Under the pieces are notes generated by a model. The model was not told where the DNA came from and searched no databases. It was given only the letters and a program-made list of their open reading frames with translations. A stretch of DNA of 21,920 nt from a virus. Positions 786 through 5,914 of this stretch are shown in pieces. The translations under genes were made by a program, and so were the position numbers. Numbering within the stretch: the stretch's first letter is position 1; each line of letters begins with the position of its first letter. The stretch spans positions 1 to 21,920 of IMG/VR virus record IMGVR_UViG_3300021962_000736; one strand, 5' to 3'.

Positions 786-910
786 TTCGCATACTCCTCC
801 ATCAACTCGGTGGCTCTTTTATTATCGCCATTACGAGCAGCTTGGGCTGCAGCACGTGCGTAACCAAATCCTTTTAACATAATGTACATTGAGCGGAGAA
901 TCTTTTTCAT
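776..910 (-). CDS. Hypothetical protein, 44 aa
   Basis: This is a short frame starting MKKILRSMYIMLKGFGYARAA and ending KCK. Its ATG overlaps the TGA of the Hsp20 gene (ATGA) and a strong GAGGAG Shine-Dalgarno lies just upstream, so it is translationally coupled to hsp20. The pattern (short hydrophobic-basic helix, then GYARAAAQAARNGD, then an acidic helix) recalls small conserved proteins of aquatic T4-like phages, but I cannot assign a role. It is likely a single helix-turn-helix-like hairpin with no transmembrane segment. Confidence 0.65.
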   Translation of the reverse strand: MKKILRSMYIMLKGFGYARAAAQAARNGDNKRATELMEEYAKCK

Positions 911-1395
911 TCATTCTCCTCTGTCAGCAATTTCTTTTCTGACTTTTGACGAACAGGAATTTTCTTTGGTTGCTTATGTTCTGGAATCAAACGCTCCAAG
1001 AAAATTTTAAGCATACCATTAATCATCTCTGCGTCTTTAACTTCGACTTCATCATTCAATACGAATGAGCGAGTGAAGGCACGATTAGCGATACCTTTGA
1101 ACAAGAAGTTCTCAGTATCTTCGTTAGCTTTTAACTCTCCACGAACAACGAGTTTACCATCATTCATTTCGATATCGATGTCTTGCTGACCAAAACCAGC
1201 TACAGCGATTTCGATGGTGTAATGATTGTCATCGTTTTTCTTGATATTGTATGGTGGATAGTTAGGAATGTTTTTGGTCAAATCCTCATGAAACTTAGCC
1301 ATGCGATTGAATTGATCGTCAAAGCCAACAAAGAACTTTTCGAAGTCTTTGAATTGAGGGTGCAATAATGTATCAGGTACAAATTTAGTCATCAT
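907..1395 (-). CDS. hsp20: Small heat-shock protein (Hsp20 / alpha-crystallin family)
   Basis: This 162-residue protein has the alpha-crystallin core. NYPPYNI precedes the domain, then HYTIEIAVAGF, DIDIEMNDGKLVVRGE and the C-terminal signature NGMLKIFLERLIPE, whose GxLxIxL form is the family hallmark. A basic tail with KKIPV follows, an I-x-[IV]-like oligomerisation motif. Small heat-shock proteins are ATP-independent holdases. Homologues are common in T4-like cyanophages and other aquatic myoviruses, where they may help assemble virion proteins. The Shine-Dalgarno AAGGAGGAGG precedes tandem ATGs at 1395 and 1392. The gene follows the possible phasin-like gene by 13 bases and overlaps the 44-aa gene, forming one operon. 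Confidence 0.93.
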   Translation of the reverse strand: MMTKFVPDTLLHPQFKDFEKFFVGFDDQFNRMAKFHEDLTKNIPNYPPYNIKKNDDNHYTIEIAVAGFGQQDIDIEMNDGKLVVRGELKANEDTENFLFKGIANRAFTRSFVLNDEVEVKDAEMINGMLKIFLERLIPEHKQPKKIPVRQKSEKKLLTEENE

Positions 1396-1408: not shown

Positions 1409-1633
1409 TTACTTGTTAACAAATGCTTTCTTTGCATCAAAGTTGTTCAATGCCAAACCCATTGTTGTGAAGAATGTGAATGACTCTTGACCAAGTTTCT
1501 TTGCGAAAGAAGCCTGTGCGTCAATGTAAGTTTGAAGGGGTTTTTGTAGTTCTTCGTTTGGGACGAATGTCTTAACGAATTGAGTCTTTGTGCTCTGAAC
1601 TGTGTCAACGAGTGCGTTGAATGCTGAGATCAT
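1409..1633 (-). CDS. Small helical protein, possibly phasin-like, 74 aa
   Basis: The protein is predicted almost entirely alpha-helical and amphipathic: NALVDTVQSTKTQFVKTF, then NEELQKPLQTYIDAQASFAKK, then ESFTFFTTMGLAL. The 'YIDAQASFAKK...FFTT' arrangement resembles bacterial phasins, which coat polyhydroxyalkanoate granules and can act as chaperone-like surfactants. The resemblance is by eye and weak, since phasins are low-complexity helical proteins. It lies between pqqA with its structured RNA and hsp20. Its own Shine-Dalgarno (AAGGAG) sits seven bases before ATG. The alternative is a phage-specific helical protein of unknown role. Confidence 0.6.
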   Translation of the reverse strand: MISAFNALVDTVQSTKTQFVKTFVPNEELQKPLQTYIDAQASFAKKLGQESFTFFTTMGLALNNFDAKKAFVNK

Positions 1634-1658
1634 GATTTCTCCTTTTCAGCGAGATTTT

Positions 1659-1686
1659 AAAAACTCTATCCCAATAGGCGATAGAG
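1659..1686 (-). terminator. Intrinsic terminator downstream of pqqA
   Basis: Minus strand: 7-bp stem CTCTATC/GATAGAG with a nine-base loop, immediately followed by TTTTT. It lies between the structured RNA after pqqA and the ribosome binding site of the phasin-like gene. It would end pqqA transcripts, or act as an attenuator for the genes that follow. Confidence 0.65.
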
Positions 1687-1689
1687 GGT

Positions 1690-1757
1690 TAAATAGTCGG
1701 CTTTTATAGTAGTTACCGACTAACTACTTTCCCATCCCGATGGGACTATACTATTTA
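1690..1757 (-). ncRNA. Structured RNA element: three-way junction with possible pseudoknot
   Basis: Minus-strand RNA from 1757 down to 1690 contains nested perfect complementarity. P1 is an 8-bp helix pairing 1750-1757 with 1690-1697 (UAAAUAGU/ACUAUUUA). P2 is a 5-bp hairpin, CCCAU/AUGGG, at 1731-1744 with loop CGGG. P3 is an 8-bp hairpin, AGUAGUUA/UAACUACU, at 1708-1728 with loop GUCGG. That loop is complementary to CCGAC at 1696-1700 just before P1 closes, allowing a five-pair pseudoknot or, extended to seven pairs, an alternative helix that competes with P1 and P3. The first base-paired codon is the pqqA stop. A terminator follows 3 nt later. I do not recognise it as a known class. A faint local likeness to glutamine-type riboswitches (GGGAAAGUAG) is noted without weight. 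Confidence 0.5.
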
Positions 1758-1758
1758 G
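1752..1758 (-). promoter_or_regulatory. T4-late-like box overlapping the pqqA stop codon
   Basis: CTAAATA on the minus strand includes the pqqA TAA stop. If used by gp55, transcription would start near 1746 and the P2/P3 hairpins would become the 5' leader of the phasin-like and hsp20 mRNA. It may be chance, since the same seven bases also occur inside other genes. Confidence 0.35.
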
Positions 1759-1826
1759 CGATTAGCAATATACATTGTAATCTCAAAGCCAAAACGCATT
1801 TCTGTAGCAGTAGGTTTGGTCCACAT
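1755..1826 (-). CDS. pqqA: PqqA: PQQ precursor peptide, 23 aa
   Basis: The 23-residue peptide begins MWTKP, continues TEMRFGFEITMY and ends IANR. PqqA peptides share this exact plan: an aromatic/Lys-Pro start, a Gly two residues before the conserved Glu, and an E-x-x-x-Y core. Here that is Glu15 and Tyr19, the same length and positions as the 23-residue Klebsiella PqqA. In PQQ synthesis the radical-SAM enzyme PqqE, with PqqD as peptide chaperone, links these Glu and Tyr side chains; a protease (PqqF or others) frees the product; PqqB and PqqC complete the cofactor. No other pqq gene is visible, so host enzymes would be needed. Start support: AGGAG six bases before ATG. The gene stands alone between weak hairpins upstream and structured RNA plus terminator downstream. 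Confidence 0.9.
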   Translation of the reverse strand: MWTKPTATEMRFGFEITMYIANR

Positions 1827-1897: not shown

Positions 1898-1921
1898 AAT
1901 AATTAGTTTTGGCTAATTATT
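1898..1921 (-). terminator. AT-rich hairpin upstream of pqqA
   Basis: Perfect 9-bp stem AATAATTAG/CTAATTATT with a six-base loop, followed by TTTCACTT on the minus strand. It overlaps the stop codon of the 55-aa gene and closes the replisome operon. The stem is weak (AT-rich), so termination may be partial and allow readthrough into pqqA. Confidence 0.4.
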
Positions 1922-2084
1922 CTTCTGTTTTTGCTGCTTCTACTTGCTTAGCAATTTCTGCAGCTTGTGGGTCACCCTGTGACTTAATCTTACTTATAAG
2001 AGCAACAACCTCATCGAAAGGATGTTTGCCCAATGTACGAAGAATAGTATTAACTTCCTGGATAGTCAATTCAAGTTTGATCAT
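1917..2084 (-). CDS. Hypothetical protein, 55 aa, downstream of regA
   Basis: The frame starts MIKLELTIQEVNTILRTLGKHPFDEVV and ends in an Ala/Glu/Lys-rich helix (QVEAAKTEE). Its ATG overlaps the regA TGA (ATGA), so translation is coupled. Short proteins with an 'LTIQEVN.IL..LG..PF..V..LI..I..Q' pattern recur in aquatic T4-like phages without a known role. The predicted structure is two or three helices and no membrane span. It is the last gene of the gp45-gp44-gp62-regA operon. Confidence 0.75.
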   Translation of the reverse strand: MIKLELTIQEVNTILRTLGKHPFDEVVALISKIKSQGDPQAAEIAKQVEAAKTEE

Positions 2085-2500
2085 TTAGTTTTCTTTCCTA
2101 TGTTATATTTTGGAACAAGTTCCCACTGGTCTTTTTCTTTGTAAGAGACCACCTTAATTTGAGACAAAGATGCTTTCTGTTCTGCTTGAGACTGATGTAG
2201 TATCTTTAACAATTCCCAGTCTTGCAACAAACCAGCAATAGCATTTCTTCTCTCGATATCGCCACTTGTGATGTTAGATTCTTTTCCATCTAGAGCAAAC
2301 AACTCTTTGAAGTGAACGATGAAATACCTACCCTGTTTATGTAGGATATGGCAAGATTGATAGAGTTTATTTTCTTTCCTGGACGCAATGCCAATGCGTG
2401 TAAGAGTTTCACGAACTTTTAGGAAGTTGTCTGGTTCGGGCAGACTCACTTCAAGCATTGATTCTGGTGTCCAGTCATAATAAATCATTTCGACAGTCAT
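2081..2500 (-). CDS. regA: RegA translational repressor
   Basis: The protein is 139 residues; T4 RegA has 122. Clear T4 RegA blocks are FLKVRETLTRIGIA, LYQSCHILHKQGRYFIVHFKE and the C-terminal WELVPKYNIG. RegA binds start regions of early phage mRNAs and shuts off their translation, including, in T4, its own neighbours gp44 and gp45. Relative to T4 there is an N-terminal extension of about 14 residues; Met15 (MLEVSLPEPDNFLK) aligns with the T4 start. I keep the upstream start because GGTGG lies just before it and its ATG overlaps the gp62 stop (TAATG). The order 45-44-62-regA is that of T4. Confidence 0.95.
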   Translation of the reverse strand: MTVEMIYYDWTPESMLEVSLPEPDNFLKVRETLTRIGIASRKENKLYQSCHILHKQGRYFIVHFKELFALDGKESNITSGDIERRNAIAGLLQDWELLKILHQSQAEQKASLSQIKVVSYKEKDQWELVPKYNIGKKTK

Positions 2501-3201: not shown

Positions 3202-4152
3202 TCATTTGAATTTACACTGAGCCATAATCTCAGTCAGTGCTGCCATAATATTTAGTTCATGATCAGCTACGAATGCTGCCTTGTACTGATAATCAGCGAG
3301 GATAAGGACTAGTTGTGGAATGCTGTTCGCTTCCATAGTGTTTGTTGCACTATCATAAAGTTCTCTGAACAAAGAAGTAGTATCTGCATCAGAGTTCTTT
3401 GCCACCCATTTACGTACTTCAGTGAAGTCTTTATTCTTCATGAAGTTAATCAGAGTTTTAAAAGACTCCTCTGACATGTTAACCAGAATGCCAGAATCAA
3501 TCTTACCAGAAACAGAATACCTCTGAAGTTCGTTTAGGATACGACGATAATCAGGGAAGTGTTTGGTGATAAGTTCAGCAACAACCTTTGGATCGAATTC
3601 AATCTGTTCATGTTTTAGAATCTGATTGACACGCTTAAAGAAAGAAGCTGCAATTGTTTGCTTGTCTGTAGTGTCAATCTTAAACTCGATGACTGAGCAA
3701 CGACTATGAATCGGCTCAATGATACGATTCTTAAAGTTACATGTCAGGATAAAACGACAGTTGTTGGCAAACTCTTCGATGAAACCACGCAATGCTGGTT
3801 GAGTTGAGTTAGCATTTAGATAATCTGCTTCGTCCAAGATTACTACTTTCTTGGCATCAGTCAGTGAAATTGTAGATGCGAATCCTTTAATCTTGGTACG
3901 GAGTGTATCAATACCAGATTCTTCAGATCCGTTAATCATCATATACTCTGCACCAATCTCGTTACAGAGTGCTTTGGCTACGGTAGTTTTACCTACACCT
4001 GCAGTTCCAGTGAACAAAAAGTTGGGTAGTTCACCTTGTGCGATATATTCTTTGAAAGTCTTTTTAAGACTATCAGGTAGAACACAATCATCAATTTTCT
4101 GTGGGCGATACTTCTCGACCCACAGAAACATTTCGTCACGACTATCAATCAT
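3202..4152 (-). CDS. 44: Clamp loader large subunit gp44 (AAA+ ATPase)
   Basis: The protein is 316 residues. An N-terminal EKYRPQKIDDCVLP matches the clamp-loader opening. Walker A GTAGVGKT is at about 49-56, Walker B VVILDEAD ending near 110, sensor-1 Asn near 139 (LTCNFKN), and the SRC arginine-finger motif at about 150-152, which acts on the neighbouring subunit. The C-terminal helical collar follows. Four copies plus gp62 open and load the gp45 clamp. The start chosen is the ATG at 4152 because GGAG lies six bases upstream; an in-frame GTG at 4164 overlaps that Shine-Dalgarno and is unlikely. A promoter at 4185-4213 lies just upstream. Confidence 0.95.
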   Translation of the reverse strand: MIDSRDEMFLWVEKYRPQKIDDCVLPDSLKKTFKEYIAQGELPNFLFTGTAGVGKTTVAKALCNEIGAEYMMINGSEESGIDTLRTKIKGFASTISLTDAKKVVILDEADYLNANSTQPALRGFIEEFANNCRFILTCNFKNRIIEPIHSRCSVIEFKIDTTDKQTIAASFFKRVNQILKHEQIEFDPKVVAELITKHFPDYRRILNELQRYSVSGKIDSGILVNMSEESFKTLINFMKNKDFTEVRKWVAKNSDADTTSLFRELYDSATNTMEANSIPQLVLILADYQYKAAFVADHELNIMAALTEIMAQCKFK

Positions 4153-4184
4153 AAAAATCTCCACATAACAAAGAATAGAGAGGG

Positions 4185-4213
4185 ATTATACCCTCTCGTC
4201 ATTTAGAATTCAA
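4185..4213 (-). promoter_or_regulatory. gp44 promoter with -10 in the loop of a perfect dyad
   Basis: Minus strand: -35 TTGAAT (4208-4213, inside the end of gene 45), 17 bp, -10 TATAAT (4185-4190). The -10 is exactly flanked by a perfect 7-bp inverted repeat, GAGAGGG (minus 4197-4191) and CCCTCTC (4184-4178). The dyad could be an operator hiding the -10, or a hairpin in readthrough RNA from gene 45. Confidence 0.6.
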
Positions 4214-4862
4214 ATGTAGAATCTGCTTCTACTGCAACATAGTAAACCAAGTCGCTGTTCGGAGATTTAAAACGAGAAATTTTCTTGCTTGAGATTGATA
4301 CTTGATAATCTCCAGGAAGCATCTTTAGATTCTCTACCTTGAGATTGACTTTGAATTTCTTATCAGATGAACCGACTGGCTCACTGTAAGAGTTGCCTGT
4401 CGCATTCTTCTTGTCACCAACAACAGCAGTGATAGTTGAACCATCACCAACGATTGATACATCGGCTGCACGAAGAACAGAAGCAGTCTTATGAATCATG
4501 TTCAACATATTAGCAGACATGTTGAAGTTAATTTCTGCTTCAGGGAATGTGATTGCTTTCTGTGGTGCGGTAAGAACAGATGGATCTGCAGCGAAGAACT
4601 TAATATTCATACTACCTTGTTTGATCGACACATACTTATCTTGGAAGTCCAGTTCTGGATCGTCAAACAACGACATCGCTCCAAGAAATTCGTTTAGGTC
4701 ATAGATACCAAAGTCAGGGAATGTTTCTGTTACGCTGGCATCTGCCATCACATTCTTCTGACCAGAGATCGTTGCGAGTTTGTTGCCATTCTTCAATAGA
4801 AGATTGCTGTTGATTCCAGCAAAATTCTTAAAGAGTGCAACTGTTTCTTTACTTAGTTTCAT
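4203..4862 (-). CDS. 45: Sliding clamp gp45
   Basis: The protein is 219 residues (T4 gp45: 228). It starts MKLSKETVALFKNFAGINSN, nearly the T4 opening, keeps IYDLNEFLGAMSLF and the PEAEINF..SANMLNMI middle, and ends YYVAVEADSTFEF, matching the conserved T4 tail EADSTxxF. gp45 forms a trimeric ring that tethers the DNA polymerase and also activates late transcription by touching gp55 and gp33. The start is at 4862, where AGGAG lies five bases upstream; the frame's upstream TTG lies within that ribosome binding region. It is the first gene of the replisome operon, behind the promoter at 4904-4932. Confidence 0.95.
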   Translation of the reverse strand: MKLSKETVALFKNFAGINSNLLLKNGNKLATISGQKNVMADASVTETFPDFGIYDLNEFLGAMSLFDDPELDFQDKYVSIKQGSMNIKFFAADPSVLTAPQKAITFPEAEINFNMSANMLNMIHKTASVLRAADVSIVGDGSTITAVVGDKKNATGNSYSEPVGSSDKKFKVNLKVENLKMLPGDYQVSISSKKISRFKSPNSDLVYYVAVEADSTFEF

Positions 4863-4903
4863 ACTTTCTCCTGTCAAATAAAACTACATTACTATGTATA
4901 ATC

Positions 4904-4932
4904 ATTATACCTCAAAAATGTCTTTTTAACAA
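4904..4932 (-). promoter_or_regulatory. Replisome operon promoter (upstream of gp45)
   Basis: Minus strand: -35 TTGTTA (4927-4932), 17 bp, GG then a perfect -10 TATAAT (4904-4909). The -10 is one arm of a perfect 15-base palindrome GTATAAT-G-ATTATAC (4896-4910), which places a TATAAT on the plus strand as well. It fits the family spacing and the GG before the -10. Confidence 0.7.
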
Positions 4933-4934
4933 AT

Positions 4935-5726
4935 TTATTTTGGCATCATCAACGCATTGAAGTTTGCAGGGACAACGATGGTCTGTACTTTACCATTCTT
5001 AATACCCTCAGAGATATTCAATGCAGCTTGTGCGTTCATAAATGCGATAGAACTGGCAGAGTTATTTGCAAGAGCAGCCATACGTTCTGCTTCTTTCTTG
5101 GCAGTCTGCACTTCTACTTCCTTCTGCTTGTATTCATTCTTGGCACGAACAAGTGCGTTGGCAGATTCAACCACGCTGTCAGCTGGAACTACGTTACGAA
5201 TTAGAACCTGACTGATAACGATAGAGCCATCAAGTTTTTCTTCAGCAAGATTCTTTTGAATCTCTTCTTGAATCAACTTCTCCATCTGTTCACGATTGTC
5301 TGCCATGTCCAGTGCTTCATACTTACGTGCAGCTTTGTAGATAGCATTACGAGCATTCTGAACAACGTAGTTATACATCACATATGTATCACCCTTAAAC
5401 TCAGCATGGAATGCTTTGTTCTTAGTAGAATACAATTCTGCTACATTCTGCGGATTGATGTTATAAACAACCACAGCATCCAGATCCTTCATGGTGCTAT
5501 TGTCTTTAGCAACAGGGGTCATGTTCTCCAAAACTACATTAACATCCTTCACAGGGAAAGTAAGAACATCACCAATCAATACCTGATTGAAAGATCCAGG
5601 TAGCAATTCTCCAGGTTTAACCTGTTTGTCAAAACCAACACGTACACCAACTTCACCAGTTTCGATACGAGTACAACCAGTGGCAAATACAGCCAACATT
5701 GCGATAGCAAGCACACTCTTTTTCAT
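4935..5726 (-). CDS. SPFH / Band 7 (prohibitin-like) lipoprotein
   Basis: The protein is 263 residues from MKKSVLAIAM. The N-terminus is a signal peptide with a lipobox-like ATGC, so it is probably lipidated at Cys18 and anchored with the body in the periplasm. The body is an SPFH domain (ETGEVGVRVGFDKQVKPGELLPG at the start, DAVVVYNINPQNVAELY, NAIYKAARKYEALD, and a DGSIVISQVLIRNVVPADS strand block), followed by the helical ESANALVRAKNEYKQKEVE coiled coil and an ASSIAFMNAQAALNISEGI tail. SPFH proteins form large membrane rings and can control proteases. The start is the ATG at 5726, seven bases after AGGA; an ATG at 5732 is in frame but too close to that site. Host-derived origin is likely. 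Confidence 0.88.
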   Translation of the reverse strand: MKKSVLAIAMLAVFATGCTRIETGEVGVRVGFDKQVKPGELLPGSFNQVLIGDVLTFPVKDVNVVLENMTPVAKDNSTMKDLDAVVVYNINPQNVAELYSTKNKAFHAEFKGDTYVMYNYVVQNARNAIYKAARKYEALDMADNREQMEKLIQEEIQKNLAEEKLDGSIVISQVLIRNVVPADSVVESANALVRAKNEYKQKEVEVQTAKKEAERMAALANNSASSIAFMNAQAALNISEGIKNGKVQTIVVPANFNALMMPK

Positions 5727-5737
5727 AATCATTTCCT

Positions 5738-5914
5738 TTAAAATAAAATAACAATACCCACCAAAAACAAAACAACCAATAATGCAATTCCAGCACTATA
5801 TGTCGCTGTCAGAACTACATTCCACTTTTCTTTCTTCGTAAATTTTCTAAACAGATCGATACCAATATAGAAAATAATAAACAAAGAAATAAATGCAGTA
5901 ATCATCTTAATCAT
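5738..5914 (-). CDS. Two-helix membrane protein, 58 aa
   Basis: An uninterrupted frame of 58 codons starts MIKMITAFISLFIIFYIGIDLF (transmembrane helix 1, about 4-22), continues with a basic cytoplasmic-type loop RKFTKKEKW, then a second hydrophobic helix (about 41-57) rich in Val, Leu and Ile. Its ATG overlaps the TGA of the diphosphohydrolase gene (ATGA) and its stop is just before the ribosome binding site of the SPFH gene, so the three are one operon. With the SPFH protein it may form a membrane complex, as host SPFH proteins often do with small membrane partners; this is inference. Confidence 0.75.
   Translation of the reverse strand: MIKMITAFISLFIIFYIGIDLFRKFTKKEKWNVVLTATYSAGIALLVVLFLVGIVILF

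Follow-up and report, generated by a model that had tools for sequence, protein, structure and literature searches.

The window, the whole stretch of DNA analysed here, is a 21,920-base IMG/VR virus record that covers part of a genome. On its minus strand, from 1826 to 1755, lies a frame of 23 codons that starts with ATG and encodes MWTKPTATEMRFGFEITMYIANR, followed by a stop. A Shine-Dalgarno sequence, AGGAG, can be read directly at 1837-1833, 6 nt 5' of the ATG, giving a stand-alone short open reading frame (ORF) with its own predicted translation start. The product matched the TIGR02107 profile over the full model (positions 1-21 of 21; E = 6.6e-11, 41.8 bits) and the PF08042 profile over positions 1-19 of 19 (E = 2.7e-10, 40.4 bits), roughly twice the cut-offs of these families (20 bits, curated, and 21.1 bits, respectively). 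It carries the E-x-x-x-Y pair, Glu15 and Tyr19, that becomes PQQ in PqqA, and ends in Arg. The frame at 1826-1755 is a genuine phage pqqA, encoding the 23-aa precursor peptide of PQQ. An earlier note on this DNA had proposed PqqA at 1755-1826, with Glu15, Tyr19, a terminal Arg and a Shine-Dalgarno sequence; the profile searches bore out the identity, and these features and the coordinates stand, with the addition of the minus strand, which the note had omitted. A plus-strand reading of the same positions had no family match, was meaningless and was discarded.

The neighbouring genes, all on the minus strand, are those of a phage. To the left of the pqqA site lie a RegA-type translation repressor (2081..2500; phrog_242, E = 5.5e-61) and, between regA and pqqA, a 55-aa ORF (1917..2084) without a PHROG match that tblastn found to be conserved in relatives. 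Downstream of pqqA are a 74-aa ORF (1409..1633), which occurs only in some relatives and has no family match, and the small heat-shock protein Hsp20 (907..1395; phrog_432, E = 3.6e-43), which marks the right boundary of the site. Together with the clamp-loader proteins gp62 and gp44 near pqqA and the major capsid protein gp23 further along (E = 7.7e-143), RegA and Hsp20 identify the window as a fragment of a T4-like phage, as the earlier note had it. Because RegA and Hsp20 flank pqqA in independent contigs and gp23 lies in the window, the gene sits within a genuine virus genome and is not host contamination. The window also encodes a predicted 265-aa lipoprotein (4935-5732, minus strand; phrog_200, E = 4.1e-34). 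Profile searches of the 21,920 bases found no PqqE, PqqD or PqqC, so pqqA is not linked to pqqBCDE here, in agreement with the earlier statement that no other pqq gene is present; such linkage is common but not obligatory, and hence does not define PqqA. A consensus scan for a dedicated pqqA promoter or terminator gave nothing clearly above shuffled sequences, a TAAGTA-like stretch common to pqqA upstream regions was not established as occurring above chance in the window, and a TATAAATA late promoter was absent.

Candidate RNA elements also lie near pqqA. A ROSE-like RNA thermometer candidate directly precedes the 74-aa ORF/hsp20 genes (1639-1686, minus strand, in the window; L363:4883-4945), in which a covarying hairpin is followed by a CUC-G-CU segment that pairs with the AGGAG ribosome site and leaves a G bulged. 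Its consensus has 13 pairs, six of them with changes on both sides, and the pattern CTCGCT...AGGAG was present in 42 of 59 related loci having an hsp20 match. The Hsp20 leader of the cultured phage Melnitz scored 34.1 bits (E = 5.4e-6) against Rfam ROSE_3, short of its gathering score of 43, and our literature search found no report of a phage ROSE element. Just 3' of pqqA (1696-1745, minus strand), a hairpin, UCCCAU-CGGG-AUGGGA, is followed by a possible H-type pseudoknot with stem GUAGUUA/UAACUAC and loop GUCGG with CCGAC. Inspection by eye showed this arrangement, in different letters, in L153, L157, L159, L161, L170 and L201, whether or not pqqA is present. The leader folds with a z-score of -3.15; the region had no Rfam match and is possibly an undescribed phage RNA element.

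A RegA scan yielded 80 related loci, the 42 nearest of which (L127-L168) have RegA identities of at least 79%. The earlier note had proposed looking for the same frame near hsp20/regA in related phages, and we found it at one fixed spot in 15 of these 42 relatives, following regA by 109-420 bases and preceding hsp20, or the 74-aa ORF that comes before hsp20. In the remaining 27, no pqqA was detected between regA and hsp20; whole-record HMM searches of most loci agreed with this pattern of presence and absence. Since most near relatives have no pqqA at the site, the gene is dispensable within the group. On a regA tree of 46 rows, pqqA presence is clustered, yet about seven state changes are needed, at least three of them forced by well supported branches, which points to repeated gain or loss at a single site. 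Where present, the gene is under purifying selection and is maintained: for 13 syntenic alleles, pN/pS was 0.20, and it was still 0.37-0.40 when residues fixed by our search patterns were left aside. Across 108 distinct viral alleles, Glu15, Tyr19, Gly13, Phe14, Arg11, Trp2 and Pro5 were invariant, several of these seven having been fixed by the search pattern. Conservation of the frame and of its Glu and Tyr, another check that the note had put forward, thus came out in favor of PqqA.

We then searched 50,697 phage records by tblastn with three different PqqA queries. All nine Methylophilales phage records returned carry pqqA (Melnitz, four records; Venkman; MEP301; MEP401; MEP402; P19250A), a count made on records other than those of the methylophages named in the taxonomy as MEP431-434, HIM624-A and Venkman EXVC038S. 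These nine records represent about five distinct phage types from several unrelated lineages, and each representative phage pqqA that we tested scored above the TIGR02107 cut-off. The sole other real phage in the collection with a match was an uncultured spring podovirus (MW202481). Two matches labelled 'Acinetobacter phage' were set aside as phage evidence; the one inspected, 'Acinetobacter phage MD-2021a' (L126, CAKLQF020000010.1), proved over this stretch to be a bacterial pqqABCDE operon adjoining the polyphosphate kinase gene ppk, apparently a mislabelled contig. As in the window, the pqqA genes of Melnitz, Venkman, P19250A, MEP301 and MEP401/402 are unlabelled and 23-24 codons long, whereas their positions and genome types differ; Melnitz pqqA, for instance, lies beside tRNA-Leu rather than between regA and hsp20. 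None of the matched phage records annotates pqqA as such: the match lies either where no gene is annotated or beneath a 'hypothetical protein' (an antisense call where inspected). The remark that so short a gene is easily missed by gene callers therefore applies to all nine Methylophilales phage records. In IMG/VR, a degenerate pattern matched at least 120 loci, all short PqqA-like frames with an SD-like purine run upstream, although some of these contigs, which were checked in part, could be host or prophage DNA. Because just 15 of the 120 matches listed share any protein with the window, viral pqqA spans many phage types.

These phages carry pqqA without the enzymes that act on its product. 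Searches of 14 virus records, five of them cultured phage genomes, found no PqqD or PqqC and no PqqE above its cut-off, with the PqqC search validated in host genomes. Weak radical-SAM-like matches in three virus contigs might suggest that the peptide serves some purpose other than PQQ, as a regulatory peptide or as the substrate of a phage-encoded modifying enzyme, and the formation of PQQ from the phage peptide is itself proposed from sequence. However, these matches lie far below the PqqE cut-off, do not occur in any of the five cultured phages and are found in all control genomes as well, and the phage peptide retains the hallmarks of PqqA. We consider such a different use improbable.

A methanol dehydrogenase beside pqqA was found in 1 of 50 virus records, and we dropped the idea that this enzyme is a general partner of viral pqqA. 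The exception is a 72 kb virus contig on which pqqA is accompanied by a PQQ dehydrogenase of the methanol/ethanol type (607.9 bits) and the alpha subunit of a formate dehydrogenase (884.8 bits), at 3990-5864 and 5944-8784 of L362 (G060:C1:30000-48000), both above their NCBIfam cut-offs; by eye, it also encodes apparent NrdA/NrdB and GroEL. This contig resembles the Lake Baikal phages of Coutinho et al., 2020 (PMC7678222), who reported T4-like Methylophilaceae phages with both PqqA and methanol dehydrogenase and interpreted them as we do. The earlier note was unsure whether a phage pqqA had been described before; it had been, in these Lake Baikal viruses in 2020. Like the window, their VP_266 and VP_139 are T4-like with pqqA and the same proposed role, but they carry a methanol dehydrogenase, which the window does not, and the passages that we consulted mention neither pqqA in cultured methylophages nor a fixed site. 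A 2026 paper on reservoir sediment (PMC13188868) also lists viral pqqA. PQQ goes unmentioned in the papers on Venkman, MEP301 and MEP401/402, and the sole mention that we found in the Melnitz paper is as a medium supplement. In the open-access literature, we found no account of an unannotated pqqA throughout the retrieved cultured methylophages, of its fixed site, of selection on it or of phages carrying only the consumable component, and the extent of phage-borne pqqA across cultured methylophages seems unreported.

The hosts have both the enzymes and several copies of pqqA. PqqE exceeded its cut-off in 112 of 120 Methylophilaceae genomes, PqqC was present in the four genomes examined, and pqqA occurred in 1-12 copies per genome (60 of 60 genomes), in line with a published survey reporting 3-12 pqqA against a single pqqBCDE (PMC4109929). 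As in phages, host pqqA is multi-copy and scattered. Methylophilaceae PqqA, MWT[KT]PAATEMRFGFEVTMYV[MC]N[KR], shares with the window peptide its length, MWT[KT]P start, ATEMRFGFE core, Glu15/Tyr19 and basic last residue, but the phage-encoded peptide of the window ends in ITMYIANR, in contrast to VTMYV[MC]N[KR] in the host. Residues 1-15 are thus Methylophilaceae-like, whereas the ending EITMYIANR is Burkholderiales-like; we found no identified genome that combines Methylophilaceae-like residues 1-15 with an IANR ending, and in an attempt to trace the host from PqqA, the exact core EMRFGFEITMY was present in 1 of 399 genomes of the order. The host of the window virus is probably a methanol-eating bacterium.

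Such differences in C-terminal residues between phages and hosts are what might be expected of a decoy, a peptide that would occupy PqqD/PqqE unproductively, lower PQQ and slow host respiration. We regard this as very improbable given that many viral peptides match Methylophilaceae PqqA residue for residue, that the seven residues listed above do not vary among viral alleles (several of them pattern-fixed), and that one virus has a PQQ dehydrogenase on the same contig. Even less credible is a functionless passenger recently picked up by accident with host DNA, which would fit the patchiness of pqqA among close relatives but not its purifying selection, its shared site in divergent contigs or its restriction, among the identified phages of the collection, to unrelated Methylophilales phages.

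PqqA is consumed one molecule per PQQ, and PqqB-E are reusable catalysts. We therefore consider it likely that phage pqqA is an auxiliary metabolic gene that supplies substrate and so sustains or raises host PQQ synthesis during infection. The phage would transcribe and translate PqqA, host PqqD/PqqE would accept it and cross-link Glu15 and Tyr19, host proteases and PqqB/PqqC would complete PQQ, and the cofactor would then fill periplasmic PQQ-dependent dehydrogenases, which in methylotrophs include the XoxF/MxaF methanol dehydrogenases. Given one-for-one consumption, a phage shutting down host transcription would need to replace just pqqA to keep or raise cofactor synthesis. The earlier proposal, that the gene would provide more substrate for host PqqE/PqqD and hence favor PQQ-dependent dehydrogenases, is partly supported; it fits our findings of phages with pqqA alone, of hosts equipped with the enzymes and with several copies of pqqA, and of one contig that adds a methanol dehydrogenase. 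Cyanophage psbA offers an analogy, since there, too, the phage provides the protein that a host energy pathway uses up fastest, although psbA encodes a reaction-centre subunit and pqqA a substrate peptide.

We infer that PqqA supply limits PQQ during infection. Cell-free extract is cited as converting added PqqA peptide to PQQ at 70-80% (in PMC9851590). In Acetobacter, plasmid-borne pqqAB raised PQQ by 29%, as against eightfold for pqqABCDE (PMC7936290), which suggests that PqqA need not be strongly limiting and that the gain may be modest. Phage and host alike amplify pqqA alone of the PQQ pathway. With unrelated phages carrying just the consumable substrate, as hosts amplify just pqqA, we lean towards the broader view that phages of PQQ-dependent methylotrophs have acquired pqqA repeatedly and carry it near-universally as an overlooked auxiliary gene, and that PqqA supply is a control point for methanol oxidation in infected cells.

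Published annotations can overlook a 72-base gene throughout an entire group of phages. In coastal seas and lakes, OM43/LD28-type methylotrophs are important oxidisers of methanol. If methylophages generally carry pqqA, limitation of PQQ by PqqA could be tested with phage-host pairs already in culture, and infection would act directly on methanol oxidation.
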